DNA of 50,596 nucleotides from a virus. Below the pieces are notes generated by a model. The model was not told the DNA's origin. It saw only the letters and a list, made by a program, of their open reading frames with translations, and did no database searches. A program made the position numbers and the translations under genes. Location of the stretch: positions 1 to 50,596 of the IMG/VR virus record IMGVR_UViG_3300017917_004774; one strand, 5' to 3'. Of the stretch, positions 6,141 to 11,437 are shown piece after piece. Numbering within the stretch: the stretch's first letter is position 1; every line of letters starts with the position of its first letter.

Positions 6141-8807
6141 TTAGAACCTAAACTTAACCTTTGCAGCAACAGAATTATTAGTCACTCCGTTGTTTACACC
6201 ATGAGATCCTTCAACAAATAATACCTCTTTATAATCTACAGAAGCACTTACTCCATAAGAACTATCAGTTCCATAAGAACCTTCTAGACTAACTCCAAAG
6301 AGGTTATTTTTCTTACCACCAAAACGAGTCTCTAATTTAACTCCTGCTTCGCCAACATGTGTGGTTTGGTTGTATGCTTCAACTGTTCTTGCAGACTGAA
6401 TAGAACCAGTTTCATTGTAAGCATTTCTTTTTACATTCTGAACAGTATATCCAAAGAATGGATGTAACCATTTCGTGACGTGCATATAAAGACGATTACT
6501 TACCCACCATTCATTTCCTGTGGTTTCACCAGCATTATTAAAAACACCTTCCACTGTTCTATTATACTTATAGTTGCTATTTGCAATCGCAGCATTTGTA
6601 TTCAAAGTAAATGTGTTTCCTCTAAATTCACTGAATATACCAAAGTGATCTTTGCTTTGTTGTGTCTTTGAGTCAACGCCATTTAGACTTATGTTGATTT
6701 TATTGTACTGGAATCCAAGAGTCCATCCTTTGGTTACATCAAACTCAAATCCACCACCAAAGATTTTGGAATCTGCAGTATAACCATCAGCATTATAAGA
6801 TTGAACAAATCTATTATTCTCAAATACTCTCAATCTTTGCTTACCTGCAGTTGGTTCATGATTTAAAAGTCCATTAATACCATCATTAATTCCATCAAGA
6901 ACTTCCAGTTGATCTACACGGCCAAAGAGAGAATCATAAGTATGTGAAATTGCAATATCATTCCAAAATTCATATGTAGTAACAGGAGTTCCATTGGATA
7001 CTGTTTCAGTTCCATCAGAATGAGAAGTAGTTGTAACTGGAGTAGTCACAACAGTTCTTACCATAGGAGTTGTTGTTGTTTTTGTATGATGTCTTGCAAT
7101 TTTCTGAACACCTTTGTCTTCAGAAGCATCATGTTCAGTAAGTGTTACATTTAAAACTGGAAGAAATGCGGATTGAACTGACGAAGATGATACAGATGGT
7201 CTTGTAATTGCTGTTGCATCAAGAGCAGTTGCAATTACAGAAGAACTTGTAGTTCCATTTGAAGAAGAACTTGAAGATGTGGAAGTTCCTTCTACAACTG
7301 TGGTTGAACCATCTGCATGGTAAATGGTTGTAACTGGTGTAGATGCAATTGTTGTAGTCGTAACTGGTGTAGTATCAAGAATTGTATCAGTATAAGTTCT
7401 AGTTCTTGGATTTCCAGATGCATCAGTGTCAGTTACAGTTCTGGTAGATGTTCTTGTTCCAGTTATAGAAGAATTAGAATTTGAAGAAGTTGTAACTGTT
7501 CGTGTAACAGCAGTTGCATCAAGAACAGTTCCAGTTACAACAGGAGTTCCAGTTCCATCAGAAGATGAAGTTGTAACTACTGGTGTTCCACTCGAAGATG
7601 TGGTAGAACCATCAGAATAAGTTGTTGTGGTAACTGGTGTTGTTGTAGTTGTCGTAGTTGTAACTGGAATAGTTGTTACAACAGTATCAACATAAGTTCT
7701 TACAACTGGATTTCCATCAGCATCCGTTGAAGAAACTGTTCTTGTTACATAAGAAGTTTCAGTTCTGGTCGATGATGAAGATGAAGTTGATACCGAGTCT
7801 GATGTGGAAGTACCAGTAACTGTTGGTGTTGGTGGTGTCGAAGGTGTTGGTGTTGTTGATGGAGGTGCAGTAGGAGAACTTGCAGAACCTACATCAGTAA
7901 CAGTATATGCCCCAGGAATTCCCCCACCAGCACCAGCAGCAACAGCATTTGAACCCGCAGCAAATGCAGAAGGTCCAAAAATATAAGCATATTGTGCAGT
8001 TACAATATCACCAGTGTTTAATCCATCAAATCTAAATGCAATACCAATTGTATAGTCACCATTACCATCATTGACTCCATTATAATAGTTTACTGGATCT
8101 TGCGTCCATCCTCTGCTGATACCAGCACCAGAACCTGATGCAGCTGCAGTATAAAGTCCTAGTGCATATTTGGATGCAAGTGCTTCAGAGAAGACAACGT
8201 TTTTCGTTGAGATTGAACCATAACCAAGAGCATTTAATGTAGATGAAGAATCTCCTGCTGCTGCTCTTGCATCAGGATCAGTATAACGTCCAAAGTAAAG
8301 AGTAGGAATATTTCGAAGTGCTTCAATTTTAGTAATAATATCTACATACTGCCATGAATTATTAAAATGGACATCATGTTCAATATTAAATTCTGTTTTT
8401 GAACCTCTCCAAACTACACGCTTATCATATGTCGATCCATTATAAGAAATTCCACTGTAATTGTAGAGAGAACCTGGAATTTGAGGAGAGGACCACTGTG
8501 CATTATTATTATAGTAATAGAACAACTGAGTTGCTCCATCCATTCCTTTAATTGAAAATCCTTCAAAAGGAGATCCAGGTGTCAAATAATCATATGCATT
8601 ATTAAATGTAGAGGTGCACGTTGAGTCATATTGAATACCTGGAGGAGTGTTACCATTGGATCCTAATGTTCCAATGAGATTAGTACCAATTTTAACGCAA
8701 TTACCTTGAAGCGTAATTGGTGAAGTAGCTGCAGAAGGATCCGCCAATGCAGGCGCCCCCATAAGGAGTACAGACGCTGCAGCCAGCGCCTTTTTAGCGT
8801 AAGACAT
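6141..8807 (-). CDS. Autotransporter-like secreted outer-membrane protein with Ser/Thr repeat stalk
   Basis: About 888 residues from 'MSYAKKALAAASVLLMGAPALA', a clear signal peptide cleaved before DPSAAT. A globular N-terminal domain (to about residue 330) is followed by a Pro/Thr linker and some 250 residues of Ser/Thr-rich repeats. The repeats contain copies of 'RT(Y)VDTVV(T)TIPVTTTT' and 'SDGSTTSSSGTPV' type. The last 250 residues read as an alternating beta-barrel ('WTLGFQYNKINISL', 'FTLNTNAAIANSNYKYNRT') ending 'NSVAAKVKFRF'. A C-terminal Phe is the outer-membrane assembly signal of autotransporters. A phage gene for host surface alteration or a derived fibre is possible. No SD is seen; an inverted repeat sits just before the start. 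Confidence 0.65.
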   Translation of the reverse strand: MSYAKKALAAASVLLMGAPALADPSAATSPITLQGNCVKIGTNLIGTLGSNGNTPPGIQYDSTCTSTFNNAYDYLTPGSPFEGFSIKGMDGATQLFYYYNNNAQWSSPQIPGSLYNYSGISYNGSTYDKRVVWRGSKTEFNIEHDVHFNNSWQYVDIITKIEALRNIPTLYFGRYTDPDARAAAGDSSSTLNALGYGSISTKNVVFSEALASKYALGLYTAAASGSGAGISRGWTQDPVNYYNGVNDGNGDYTIGIAFRFDGLNTGDIVTAQYAYIFGPSAFAAGSNAVAAGAGGGIPGAYTVTDVGSASSPTAPPSTTPTPSTPPTPTVTGTSTSDSVSTSSSSSTRTETSYVTRTVSSTDADGNPVVRTYVDTVVTTIPVTTTTTTTTPVTTTTYSDGSTTSSSGTPVVTTSSSDGTGTPVVTGTVLDATAVTRTVTTSSNSNSSITGTRTSTRTVTDTDASGNPRTRTYTDTILDTTPVTTTTIASTPVTTIYHADGSTTVVEGTSTSSSSSSNGTTSSSVIATALDATAITRPSVSSSSVQSAFLPVLNVTLTEHDASEDKGVQKIARHHTKTTTTPMVRTVVTTPVTTTSHSDGTETVSNGTPVTTYEFWNDIAISHTYDSLFGRVDQLEVLDGINDGINGLLNHEPTAGKQRLRVFENNRFVQSYNADGYTADSKIFGGGFEFDVTKGWTLGFQYNKINISLNGVDSKTQQSKDHFGIFSEFRGNTFTLNTNAAIANSNYKYNRTVEGVFNNAGETTGNEWWVSNRLYMHVTKWLHPFFGYTVQNVKRNAYNETGSIQSARTVEAYNQTTHVGEAGVKLETRFGGKKNNLFGVSLEGSYGTDSSYGVSASVDYKEVLFVEGSHGVNNGVTNNSVAAKVKFRF

Positions 8808-8812
8808 AGAAA

Positions 8813-8879
8813 TACGGTAACTTAGTGTGTACTTAACAAAACTAAGATGTTTAATTAAGAAGTTCACCAAGTTACCGTA
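8813..8879 (-). repeat. 15-bp inverted repeat in the leader of the autotransporter-like gene
   Basis: TACGGTAACTTAGTG (8813-8827) and CACCAAGTTACCGTA (8865-8879) are inverted copies with one mismatch, which is a G-U pair in RNA. The intervening 37 bases contain ACTAAG, which could instead pair with CTTAGT, so two exclusive structures are possible. The inner arm ends five bases from the ATG at 8807. Confidence 0.55.
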
Positions 8880-8926: not shown

Positions 8927-9121
8927 TTATTGTTTTTTCCTTTCGTAATAGGAACACCAACCGTCAGGAGAAATATATCCTTTAACAGATGAACATCCGT
9001 GGGGAGATCTCCACATTGTGCATGATGAACACTTTTCTTTTCCCTTTGGTTCCACTTGATATTTAGCAGTAGTTTTCGCTACTTTTTTCTCTTCATCAAG
9101 AAAATCATTTAGAGTCTTCAT
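8927..9121 (-). CDS. HiPIP-like Cys protein with capsid-targeting-like N terminus
   Basis: 64 residues. The N terminus [16 protein letters not shown] resembles the T4 capsid-targeting sequence, with a gp21-type site LDE|E. The body has four cysteines in the pattern of high-potential iron-sulfur-like phage proteins: 'CSSCTMW', 'GCSSVKGYISPDGWC', 'SYYERKK'. The role is unknown. Metal or Fe-S binding is inferred from the cysteine pattern only. The ATG at 9121 overlaps the end of the upstream CTS gene. Confidence 0.55.
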   Translation of the reverse strand: MKTLNDFLDEEKKVAKTTAKYQVEPKGKEKCSSCTMWRSPHGCSSVKGYISPDGWCSYYERKKQ

Positions 9122-9440
9122 TTTTATTTTTTTGAAGAGATTTTGCAACACTTATGGCAGCACGAACTGGACGTTCAAATGCTTGACGAACTGCAGGAGT
9201 AGGGCCAGTTTTAACCATTTTTGGACTAAATGCTTTGTGTGGTCTCCACCCTTTAATTCCTTGAGCACCAGATTTAAATGCTTTATCAGTTCGAGTTAGT
9301 TGTCTTTTATCATCATCCATGAGTTCCTTCCATGATGCTTTATTTTCATTTGGAACTCTTTCATTTCTCCCCTTATTCCACCAACTAACTGCCTTTTGAG
9401 CAATATTTGCCTCAGAAATAAATTCCTGAAAGGTTTTCAT
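9105..9440 (-). CDS. Small basic protein with near-exact T4 capsid-targeting sequence
   Basis: 111 residues, beginning [19 protein letters not shown]4 internal proteins IPII and IPIII begin MKTYQEFIAEA and are cut by gp21 after the Glu. Here ISE|A fits the same site. The mature part is basic ('[18 protein letters not shown]', '[18 protein letters not shown]') with no recognised domain. By analogy it should be a head-packaged internal protein injected with DNA. ATGA overlap with the upstream endolysin gene. Confidence 0.65.
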
Positions 9441-10152
9441 TTAATAACCTCACAGCAACGAGCATAATATTTCTTACGGTCATCAAGACCGTTATATCCA
9501 CCATTTACTCGCTTAGTGACTTGATCAACAGTTGGATTGCTGTCACATAATGCATTCATATTATTATTGTGCCACCAGAAACCTGCAGAAGTCATTGGAT
9601 ATTTTTTCGCAACATAAGTTACGCCTTCCATAACTTTAGGGTCTTTAATATAGTTTGCAAATGCCTGATAGTTTGCACGACCAGTCATCTGAATATATCC
9701 AGCACCCTTGAATCTCTTACCATCACCTGCTTGAGTATTTCCAAGATCTGAACGCCCTTCATAATCGGCACCAGAAGCAAGTTCTTCCTTATATCTTCCA
9801 CCACCAGACTCATGTGAGATTTGTGATAAGAAATGACGAATACGAACTGGAGTATTAATCTTAAAGAAACTAAGACCGTGATTCATTTCATCAACTTCAT
9901 CATCACCAATCAGATTTTCACCACAGTTCCAGATGTATGCAAGTTGTTTTTTAGTTACAAGAACAGGACCGCCACCACCTGCAGATGCAGGAGCAGCGGA
10001 TGCTACTTTTTTCTGTAAATCTCCGCCCACGCAGCATTATCTTCAAGATATTCTTTGGGAAGATTATCCTCTAACCATTGAACTGCTTTCACATGATTTG
10101 CATTCTTATCATCATAATACTTAAAAAAGTTGTGTAAATCTACTTTTGCCAT
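9437..10152 (-). CDS. GH19-type endolysin/muramidase expressed by apparent -1 frameshift
   Basis: Two frames join. Frame A (10152 to 10003) starts at an ATG with a strong GGAGGA site and encodes '[18 protein letters not shown]' through '[10 protein letters not shown]', then TAG. Frame B (-1) continues to 9437 with a GH19-like catalytic domain: '[15 protein letters not shown]' with the likely catalytic Glu, 'GRSDLGNTQ', '[16 protein letters not shown]' and 'AGFWWHNNN'. The junction is A AAA AAG immediately before the TAG. Shifting there gives a 238-residue protein whose N-terminal module matches the next gene upstream. Frame B alone has only a GTG at 10030 without a ribosome site. GH19 domains hydrolyse chitin or peptidoglycan, so lysis or wall entry is likely. 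Confidence 0.7.
9969..10012 (-). promoter_or_regulatory. Programmed -1 frameshift signal: A_AAA_AAG slippery site, 6-nt spacer, stem-loop
   Basis: The slippery heptamer AAAAAAG is at 10012-10006, read AGA AAA AAG TAG in the zero frame. A six-base spacer (TAGCAT) follows. Then comes a GC-rich hairpin at 9999-9969: outer stem CCGC/GCGG and inner stem CCTGC/GCAGG with loop ATCT, separated by an internal loop. Spacing and order match classical bacterial -1 frameshift elements. Confidence 0.65.
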
Positions 10153-10172
10153 TGTTAGTTCCTCCGTGTTTA

Positions 10173-10844
10173 TCAGTCAAAGATACGGCCCCAACCGTCA
10201 TTGCCACCTGGGCACCAACGATACTTGAGCATTGCTTTGGTATAAATGGTCTTCTTACCATTTGTTACTGGACCAGTATAGTTGTCATTGCACGAACCAT
10301 ATGGGTCATTGCAGTAATAACCTTTGCCATCTGGAGTCTTACCGATCACTACAACCATGTGCCCACCAGTAGGTGCAGATAAAGGACCACGGTGAAGAAT
10401 ACCAATAACGACAGGCTTCCCAGCATCGAGGCTACGATCAATGTCAGAAAAAGAAAGATTGTAACTAAAGTGTGACTTAACACCATAACCTGCGAGAACT
10501 TTTGTCTGTACCGCATGGTCAGTCGTGTCACCAATCGCAAATACTTTTTTAATGTATTCATCATCGCCTTTAATCGAACCAGGCTTGAGGAATGCAAGAC
10601 ACATTGCACACGACGAAGAGTTGCAAGTTCTATGTGCATCTCTGTAGTTATCTACTTGATTGAAATAAGGAACGTTCAGAACTGCTGGCGCTGGTGGTTT
10701 TGTTCTAAAAATATTAACCCAGTCCGTTTCAGAATCATCCATGAACCTTTCGGGTAGATGATCTTCTAACCACTGAACTGCTGCTACATGATTTTCATTA
10801 TTCTCATCATAATACTTAAAAAAGTTATGAAGATCTAGAGTCAT
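10173..10844 (-). CDS. C39-like papain-fold peptidase with shared N-terminal module
   Basis: 223 residues with an AGGAGA ribosome site. Residues 1-48 ('[18 protein letters not shown]' to 'DWVNIFRTKP') are a close paralogue of the N-terminal module of the GH19 gene downstream. The rest resembles C39-family peptidases: 'VLNVPYFNQVDNYRD' (oxyanion Gln63), 'TCNSSSCAMCL' (Cys74 or Cys79 as nucleophile), 'GGHMVVVIGK' (His) and 'YYCNDPYGS' (Asp). It may cut peptide cross-links in the wall together with the glycan-cutting GH19 protein. Which cysteine is catalytic is not certain. Confidence 0.65.
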   Translation of the reverse strand: MTLDLHNFFKYYDENNENHVAAVQWLEDHLPERFMDDSETDWVNIFRTKPPAPAVLNVPYFNQVDNYRDAHRTCNSSSCAMCLAFLKPGSIKGDDEYIKKVFAIGDTTDHAVQTKVLAGYGVKSHFSYNLSFSDIDRSLDAGKPVVIGILHRGPLSAPTGGHMVVVIGKTPDGKGYYCNDPYGSCNDNYTGPVTNGKKTIYTKAMLKYRWCPGGNDGWGRIFD

Positions 10845-11025
10845 TTTCTTCTCCTATAAATTTTAGTGCAAAAATATTATGTTCTTCAATTCTTGGATTT
10901 AACCATTCATTAAATTCTTTTTTCAAAGACTTAGCATCTTTATATTTATTTTCCTCACACAAACTATTGATCCTACCAATTACCCATTCATGTGAGTGAC
11001 GAAGAGTTTCCTCGATTTCCTGCAT
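10825..11025 (-). CDS. Small charged helical protein, unknown function
   Basis: 66 residues, 'MQEIEETLRHSHEWVIGRIN' then a Lys/Glu-rich helix and 'NEWLNPRIEEHNIFALKF'. It overlaps the peptidase gene by 20 bases and the SegE-like gene by 38. No motif is recognised. The overlap chain supports it as a real gene. Confidence 0.45.
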   Translation of the reverse strand: MQEIEETLRHSHEWVIGRINSLCEENKYKDAKSLKKEFNEWLNPRIEEHNIFALKFIGEENDSRSS

Positions 11026-11437
11026 AATCTTTTCTCATATATCTTCCAAGGATATTGGAATTATAGTAAGCAAATTCTCCGTTGTCAAGATATTCTCTCA
11101 ACACATTATTTAGAAATAACTGTCTTGTCTCTTCATAATTGCATTCTCCCTTTGTTTTATGAAGACTCAATATTTCTCTATTGAAAAACTCTTTACCATA
11201 TTTTTTTACATCTTCTTTGAGTTCTGGACAGGATCCGTAATACTTCTTCCAATCAGATTCCTGTTTAACTCTTCGAGATTTGCCTTTTGGTGTGCGGTAT
11301 GACCAGAAATATTTTCTACCAATGTAACTACGACCAGTTTTCCTACATTGAATATGATAAACAAAACCAAAATGATCTTGAATATGATCAGTATCAAAAA
11401 CCTCTCCATTGTAGGTCCATGGATTCTCGTAACTCAT
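10988..11437 (-). CDS. SegE-like GIY-YIG endonuclease-type protein
   Basis: 149 residues. 'FGFVYHIQCRKTGRSYIGRK' matches the GIY-YIG core (here F-V-Y ... Y-I-G) followed by a conserved basic segment. 'SDWKKYYGSCPELKEDVKKY', 'FNREILSLHKTKGECNYEE' and 'YYNSNILGRYM' are shared with the SegE-like nuclease family of T4-type phages. Such proteins are free-standing homing nucleases or their derivatives. A late-like box GATAAATA is at 11464-11471. Activity is inferred from family only. Confidence 0.65.
   Translation of the reverse strand: MSYENPWTYNGEVFDTDHIQDHFGFVYHIQCRKTGRSYIGRKYFWSYRTPKGKSRRVKQESDWKKYYGSCPELKEDVKKYGKEFFNREILSLHKTKGECNYEETRQLFLNNVLREYLDNGEFAYYNSNILGRYMRKDYAGNRGNSSSLT

Follow-up and report, generated by a model that had tools for sequence, protein, structure and literature searches.

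On the minus strand of a 50,596-nucleotide viral stretch (IMG/VR record IMGVR_UViG_3300017917_004774, positions 1 to 50,596; called the window here), a short open reading frame with a strong ribosome site runs into a TAG, and a GH19 lysozyme domain lies open in the -1 frame just beyond it. The question is whether this is a damaged gene, two neighbouring genes, or one gene that is meant to be read in two frames. We consider it very probable, from sequence comparison, that 10152 to 9437 (-) is a single lysin gene expressed through programmed -1 ribosomal frameshifting at A_AAA_AAG. An earlier sequence-only reading had already proposed frameshifting here; it is supported as by far the best explanation by the conservation of the heptamer, the stem and the -1 stops.

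Anatomy of the lysin gene

The features of the locus are collected in Table 1. Every element that the sequence-only reading had named (the ORF, its GGAGGA, the heptamer against the TAG, the 6-nt spacer and the GC-rich hairpin) was found, and its coordinates, 9969-10152, were accurate; the strand, which it had left unstated, is minus.

Table 1. Positions of the lysin gene elements and the adjoining paralogue in the window
Feature	Position	Strand	Basis or conservation
Shine-Dalgarno GGAGGA of the module ORF	10160..10165	(-)	sequence
Zero-frame ORF, 49-aa helical N-terminal module ending YRKK, then TAG	10003..10152	(-)	sequence
Start codon ATG of the module ORF	10152-10150	(-)	
Candidate internal stimulator GGCGGAG, SD-like, 5' of the heptamer	10021..10027	(-)	
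Slippery heptamer A_AAA_AAG, X_XXY_YYZ phase	10006..10012	(-)	invariant among fused relatives
Zero-frame stop TAG, abutting the heptamer	10003..10005	(-)	TAG/TAA in 7/7 window-type sequences
Putative stimulatory hairpin, +6 nt from the heptamer	9969..9999	(-)	equivalent at +6 across the family
Ala/Ser/Gly linker followed by the GH19 lysozyme domain, both in the -1 frame (VASAAP...CCEVIK)	9437..10006	(-)	
Paralogue: module and C39 peptidase in a single frame, adjoining upstream	10173..10844	(-)	

The 49-codon ORF terminates in AGA AAA AAG TAG. With codon boundaries at AGA, AAA and AAG, the heptamer is in the phase needed for tandem tRNA slippage, and the spacer to the hairpin is TAGCAT. Two signals of a bacterial -1 frameshift site are in place, the X_XXY_YYZ heptamer in zero-frame phase and a downstream structure at a short spacer. 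The slipperiness of AAG is set by the tRNA-Lys set of the host; in E. coli, A_AAA_AAG ranks among the most shift-prone motifs (PMC4066793). The word AAAAAAG itself is frequent in the AT-rich window, with 63 sites against 47 expected, and the other sites near long ORFs were rejected as out-of-frame words within single long ordinary genes. It is the arrangement, not the word, that is non-random: a phased site, a start-to-stop module 5' of it, an abutting stop, and an ORF that is readable thereafter. Since the signal is conserved in relatives, chance and sequencing error were dismissed.

GH19 can be read only in the -1 frame, which stays open up to the stop at 9437. The sequence-only reading had described GH19 as lacking a ribosome site of its own, and indeed only one candidate start, the GTG at 10030, lies 5' of the catalytic domain, and it has no such site. 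The GH19 part matches endolysin PHROGs (3e-41), and its fold and sequence match solved endolysins 9ms7, 9eoi and 4ok7 when in-frame relatives are used. The Glu residues in HES and KEE are invariant across the GH19 alignment, and by fold and conserved catalytic Glu the domain would belong to the GH19 endolysin class, as judged through those in-frame relatives. The model of one in-frame fusion (L012) consists of three short helices and a GH19 fold matching the solved endolysins; an AlphaFold2 model of a GH24 fusion was poor (pLDDT 46) and was set aside. The module had no Pfam match and no match among solved structures (best E 0.46). It is shared with the neighbouring C39 peptidase, as had been claimed earlier.

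Relatives of both polarities

IMG/VR was searched with the GH19 part and with a DNA pattern. Six further unique sequences share the window layout, that is, A_AAA_AAG, an immediate TAG or TAA, and GH19 continuing in -1 (L007/L095, L008/L089, L009, L010/L100, L011/L103 and L015/L016/L088). With the window they form a window-type set of seven unique sequences. Here and in the wider family the loci are kin to each other, so that counts overstate independence. The module carries a Shine-Dalgarno GGAGG in six of the seven and AAGGAGA in the seventh. Across the set, mean dS in GH19 is 0.93 with a dN/dS of 0.054, and dN/dS in the module is 0.107. These values indicate an old layout with both halves under purifying selection; the anatomy, its conservation and this selection can be read from the sequences themselves.

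Were the frame break an artefact of sequencing or assembly, or the mark of a recent pseudogene, the actual run would have seven A's and the gene would be one open frame. The break does sit in a homopolymer, and an in-frame A7 form exists in another lysin lineage (L046/L047, against A6 in L045/L323). However, six A's and an immediate stop recur across different metagenomes, in seven unique sequences; GH19 is under strong purifying selection at a synonymous divergence near 1; and the in-frame relatives also have six A's, the base count differing further downstream. An old layout with selection on both halves excludes error or a decaying pseudogene, so that this account is extremely unlikely and already refuted at the level of the family. 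We give no more credence to GH19 as a separate gene, translated from its own start at GTG 10030 or by reinitiation after the TAG, with the module ORF as a leader. A GTG lies in -1 5' of the heptamer in the window and in L095, and gene callers may well choose it, but it has no ribosome site and is absent from the other five sequences. Those five have a -1 stop 10 nt 5' of the heptamer end, and ATG, GTG and TTG are absent from their -1 frame before +95, the next starts falling within the catalytic domain or at its border. GH19 in these five therefore needs a shift at the heptamer, which contradicts an independent start; nor would such a start explain the invariant GGA, AAA and AAG codons and the hairpin at +6.

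A peptide pattern that left the choice of Lys codons free, TrpAla(Glu/Asp)-x-(Tyr/Phe)Arg-(x)-LysLys, picked up fusions of the module to GH19 and, in larger number, to the phage lysozyme domain (PF00959, GH24). The sequence-only reading had suggested an alignment of homologues as a check, and its outcome is favourable: every fused gene, whether in-frame or window-type, encodes Lys-Lys by AAA AAG (131/131), against a background share of 15.8% among the Lys-Lys pairs of the remaining genes on these contigs, and the hairpin is kept at +6. In the Gly-Lys-Lys type, no codons but the three containing the heptamer (GGA, AAA and AAG) are free of synonymous variation, and GGA is fixed there even though GGT is the commonest Gly codon. 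Conservation of the signal goes beyond amino-acid need, with coding selection on both sides of it.

The first codon 3' of the heptamer, which almost always has T in its third position, encodes Asn, Thr, His, Ala, Gly or Ser; AAT, AGT, GAA, GAG or GAT comes second. This places a -1 stop (TAA, TAG or TGA) at the second codon past the heptamer in 113 of 123 in-frame fusions, and the ten others reach one 10-16 codons on. A parsimony count over a tree of 108 GH24 lysins gives at least 29 amino-acid changes for codon 1 and at least 21 for codon 2; on the same tree the stop word has changed at least 24 times and stop presence only 7 times. By its sequence, the in-frame layout is that of E. coli dnaX, and a mirror-image version of the window's device. 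The sequence-only reading had named, as a finding that would refute frameshifting, relatives with both parts in one frame and no conservation of heptamer or stem. One-frame relatives were indeed found, but heptamer and stem are retained in them, and a -1 stop falls two codons in; being the mirror-image, dnaX-like form of the same device, they are not evidence against it. The isolates DSL-LC02 and DSL-LC03 carry the cassette in this form.

In a GH19-domain tree the shifted sequences are nested, with low support, inside the in-frame ones, and the shifted label was clustered in a shuffled-label test. Judged on sequence, the family is much larger, and the window belongs to it as a derived form with the polarity reversed, a placement that the sequence-only reading had missed.

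Six fusions without the codon-2 stop (L130, L153, L158, L175, L223 and L284) are predicted to have Cys-rich -1 tails, such as GKCGNCGCR, VKFCIPSGCSNCSCK and VKRCSNCNCSTSV. Such tails may just result from reading Ala codons in -1, or they may bind metal, akin to the tail of the split module described below.

The hairpin, a candidate stimulator and natural controls

The window hairpin has 13 bp and one bulge (CCGCUGCU-CCUGC / GCAGG-U-GGUGGCGG). In a 63-nt window its energy is -20.9 kcal/mol (z = -4.1), and 0/200 shuffles were as stable. Among 52 representative in-frame sequences the hairpin begins at +6, the pairing probability jumping between +5 and +6. Because the Ala-rich linker is partly self-complementary, we built the null by recoding every linker synonymously at the codon usage of the family itself. 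The in-frame hairpins had a mean energy of -17.2 kcal/mol against -14.05 +/- 0.38 kcal/mol for the recoded linkers, and pairing of +6 to +11 was 0.94 against 0.74 +/- 0.02. The arms change in pairs (GCTGCA/TGCAGC, GCGGCA/TGCCGC, GCTGGA/TCCAGC, GCTGTAGTA/TACTACAGC). Covariation on a MAFFT alignment was 0.241 against 0.136 shuffled, with 0/500 as high, and it beat all slid versions. The seven window-type sequences alone had 94.5% of cells paired and little two-sided change. RNAalifold gave no consensus structure on the mixed alignment, since loop lengths vary and arms are misaligned, and we therefore used per-sequence folding against synonymous recoding together with explicit pair counts. An SD-like word at stimulatory distance occurs in 6/7 window-type, 64/118 in-frame GH24 and 0/6 in-frame GH19 sequences; a stimulator of this kind is common but not universal, and at best optional.

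Several arrangements of the same module serve as natural comparisons. In a split form (L200:2205-2932, L203, L211, L263, L276, L289, L137 and L146), a stand-alone module gene of 72-74 aa is followed about 54 nt downstream by a separate GH24 lysozyme gene, and the module ends in CPHCGKPLGK, a zinc-knuckle-like tail. Where split modules retain Lys-Lys, AAA AAG is used in 0/7, with AAG AAA or AAG AAG instead, and folding downstream of it is unremarkable. The C39 paralogue next to the lysin has AGA ACA AAA CC at its module junction, without the heptamer, and is a natural negative control. A module-C39-GH19 lysin (L045:2294-3561 and L323) has GTA AAA AAG TAG (A6) and a hairpin, which is 11 bp in L045 and weaker in L323; one extra A (A7) in L046 and L047 puts module, C39 and GH19 in frame. 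By sequence, either the signal arose a second time here or the frame flipped again. At the junction of C39-GH19 genes read in one frame in the marine isolates S-H34, MA10 and S-N03, the heptamer is absent.

These data bear on the possibility that the heptamer, hairpin and -1 stop of the in-frame relatives are by-products of Lys-Lys and an Ala-rich linker, so that only the window type, if any, shifts. GCN repeats do self-fold, and the linkers are alike. Nevertheless, the hairpin beats the synonymous recoding nulls, zero variation falls at exactly three codons, -1 stops are kept through the many stop-word changes, and AAA AAG is lost in split modules, all of which makes such an origin decidedly unlikely. 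Transcriptional slippage on the A run could also yield mixed mRNA, as in Thermus dnaX, and an A-rich run followed by a hairpin would suit it. The run of six A's, however, falls short of those listed for such slippage, which exceed seven A's (Thermus dnaX has nine; PMC3711429), and it is never longer in relatives. The AAA-AAG pair, the 6-nt spacing and the adjacent stop fit tRNA slippage, and we regard a transcriptional route as very unlikely.

A predicted mechanism and its known counterparts

Under programmed frameshifting, ribosomes would initiate at the ATG and synthesise the 49-aa module, and the hairpin 6 nt downstream would pause them at A_AAA_AAG. A fraction would re-pair both tRNA-Lys one base back and read on into the GH19 lysozyme; the remainder would terminate at the TAG and release free module. 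In most relatives the roles would be reversed, the zero frame giving the full enzyme and the -1 frame, ending one codon later, the free module. Comparison of L014 with the window points to a one-base loss between heptamer and stem as the event that flipped the polarity to the window's, because the 6-nt spacer is kept. Both layouts would yield the same two proteins, and since both polarities survive, the pair of free module and enzyme is suggested to be the selected trait. Survival of both polarities also fits a shift efficiency near one half. We infer the frameshifting itself, its efficiency, and a free module that assembles with or tunes the lysin. A wider reading is more tentative, and we hold it somewhat doubtful: in T4-like cyanophages a portable cassette would set how much free module is made per lysozyme, the polarity could flip because at an efficiency near one half the ratio is about equal from either frame, and the free module would be an obligate partner in a multi-subunit enzyme, perhaps including the C39 lysin.

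The closest parallel is E. coli dnaX (tau/gamma), which shares the heptamer A_AAA_AAG, its phase, a -1 stop one codon on, a downstream hairpin, and a product pair made up of the full protein and its N-terminal part. The dnaX sequence reads ...AAA AAG AGT GAA, and its cyanophage lysin counterpart AAA AAG ACT GAA. The genes are unrelated, however; the module has about 50 aa where dnaX encodes a large ATPase, and the SD-like element of the lysins is only partly conserved. Identity with dnaX was excluded, the protein being a GH19 lysozyme with a module that is not in Pfam; it would work like dnaX without being dnaX. Genes for dnaX of reversed polarity, with a stop directly past the site as in the window, are known (PMC5009743). 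In -1 frameshifting of the IS3 family and IS911, a zero-frame stop near the heptamer, a longer -1 fusion and a hairpin are likewise found (PMC4066793), but the genes encode transposases. They match the window in these three features. We know of no in-frame mirror forms of IS3-family or IS911 frameshifting.

The sequence-only reading had called a mixture of free module and full enzyme unusual for a lytic enzyme. Two-polypeptide endolysins are in fact known, but they arise through internal starts (PMC9430671, PMC7098653). From one gene, LysIME-EF1 (PMC7098653), CTP1L (PMC4777826) and LysP7951 (PMC9430671) each give two products, the full enzyme and a non-catalytic domain in free form, which can co-assemble with the full enzyme. 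By analogy, the free module may be a lysin subunit. The analogy is functional only: the free domain in those endolysins is C-terminal and made from an internal start, whereas in the window lysin it is N-terminal and a predicted product of frameshifting. An internal-start arrangement was excluded, as the window's parts are in different frames and no start is common to relatives. Kyanoviridae GH19 and GH24 lysozymes (DSL-LC02, DSL-LC03) are likewise module-linker-lysozyme genes, but are annotated as single-product lysozymes or endolysins.

We found no prior report of a frameshifted lysin of this kind in the open-access literature. As a mechanism, such recoding is known. What appears to be new is that lysozymes use it, that both polarities occur across one family, and that split genes stand in contrast. 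Conserved -1 frameshifting in tailed phages is known mainly from tail assembly chaperones, and a frameshifted lysin family, if true, would give it a new job, the stoichiometry of a lytic enzyme. It would imply that many cyanophage lysozymes annotated as single-product make two proteins; window-type genes are likely annotated as two genes. The family offers a comparison set for recoding, with two polarities, a signal-free split form, a signal-free paralogue and a second origin. Free lysin domains, studied so far in phages of Gram-positive hosts, would become testable in cyanophages, and the isolates DSL-LC02 and DSL-LC03 make direct tests possible.

Some minor observations concern the surroundings of the lysins. 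Two genes upstream of the lysin pair, the window encodes a SegE-like GIY-YIG endonuclease at 10988-11437 (-) (PF19835, E 2e-51). At 8927-9151 (-) lies a small Cys-containing protein with a just-sub-threshold match to HIPIP (high-potential iron-sulfur protein; E 7e-4), and at 6141-8870 (-) a protein of 909 aa that has long repeats rich in Ser and Thr and matches nothing in Pfam. In DSL-LC03 the gene after the lysins is annotated as an autotransporter outer-membrane beta-barrel. A scan of genome contigs gave one phage-like contig, within an archaeal MAG. L316, a contig with the module-C39 gene of the phages, is assigned to a metagenome-assembled genome of Euryarchaeota, which probably reflects phage contamination.
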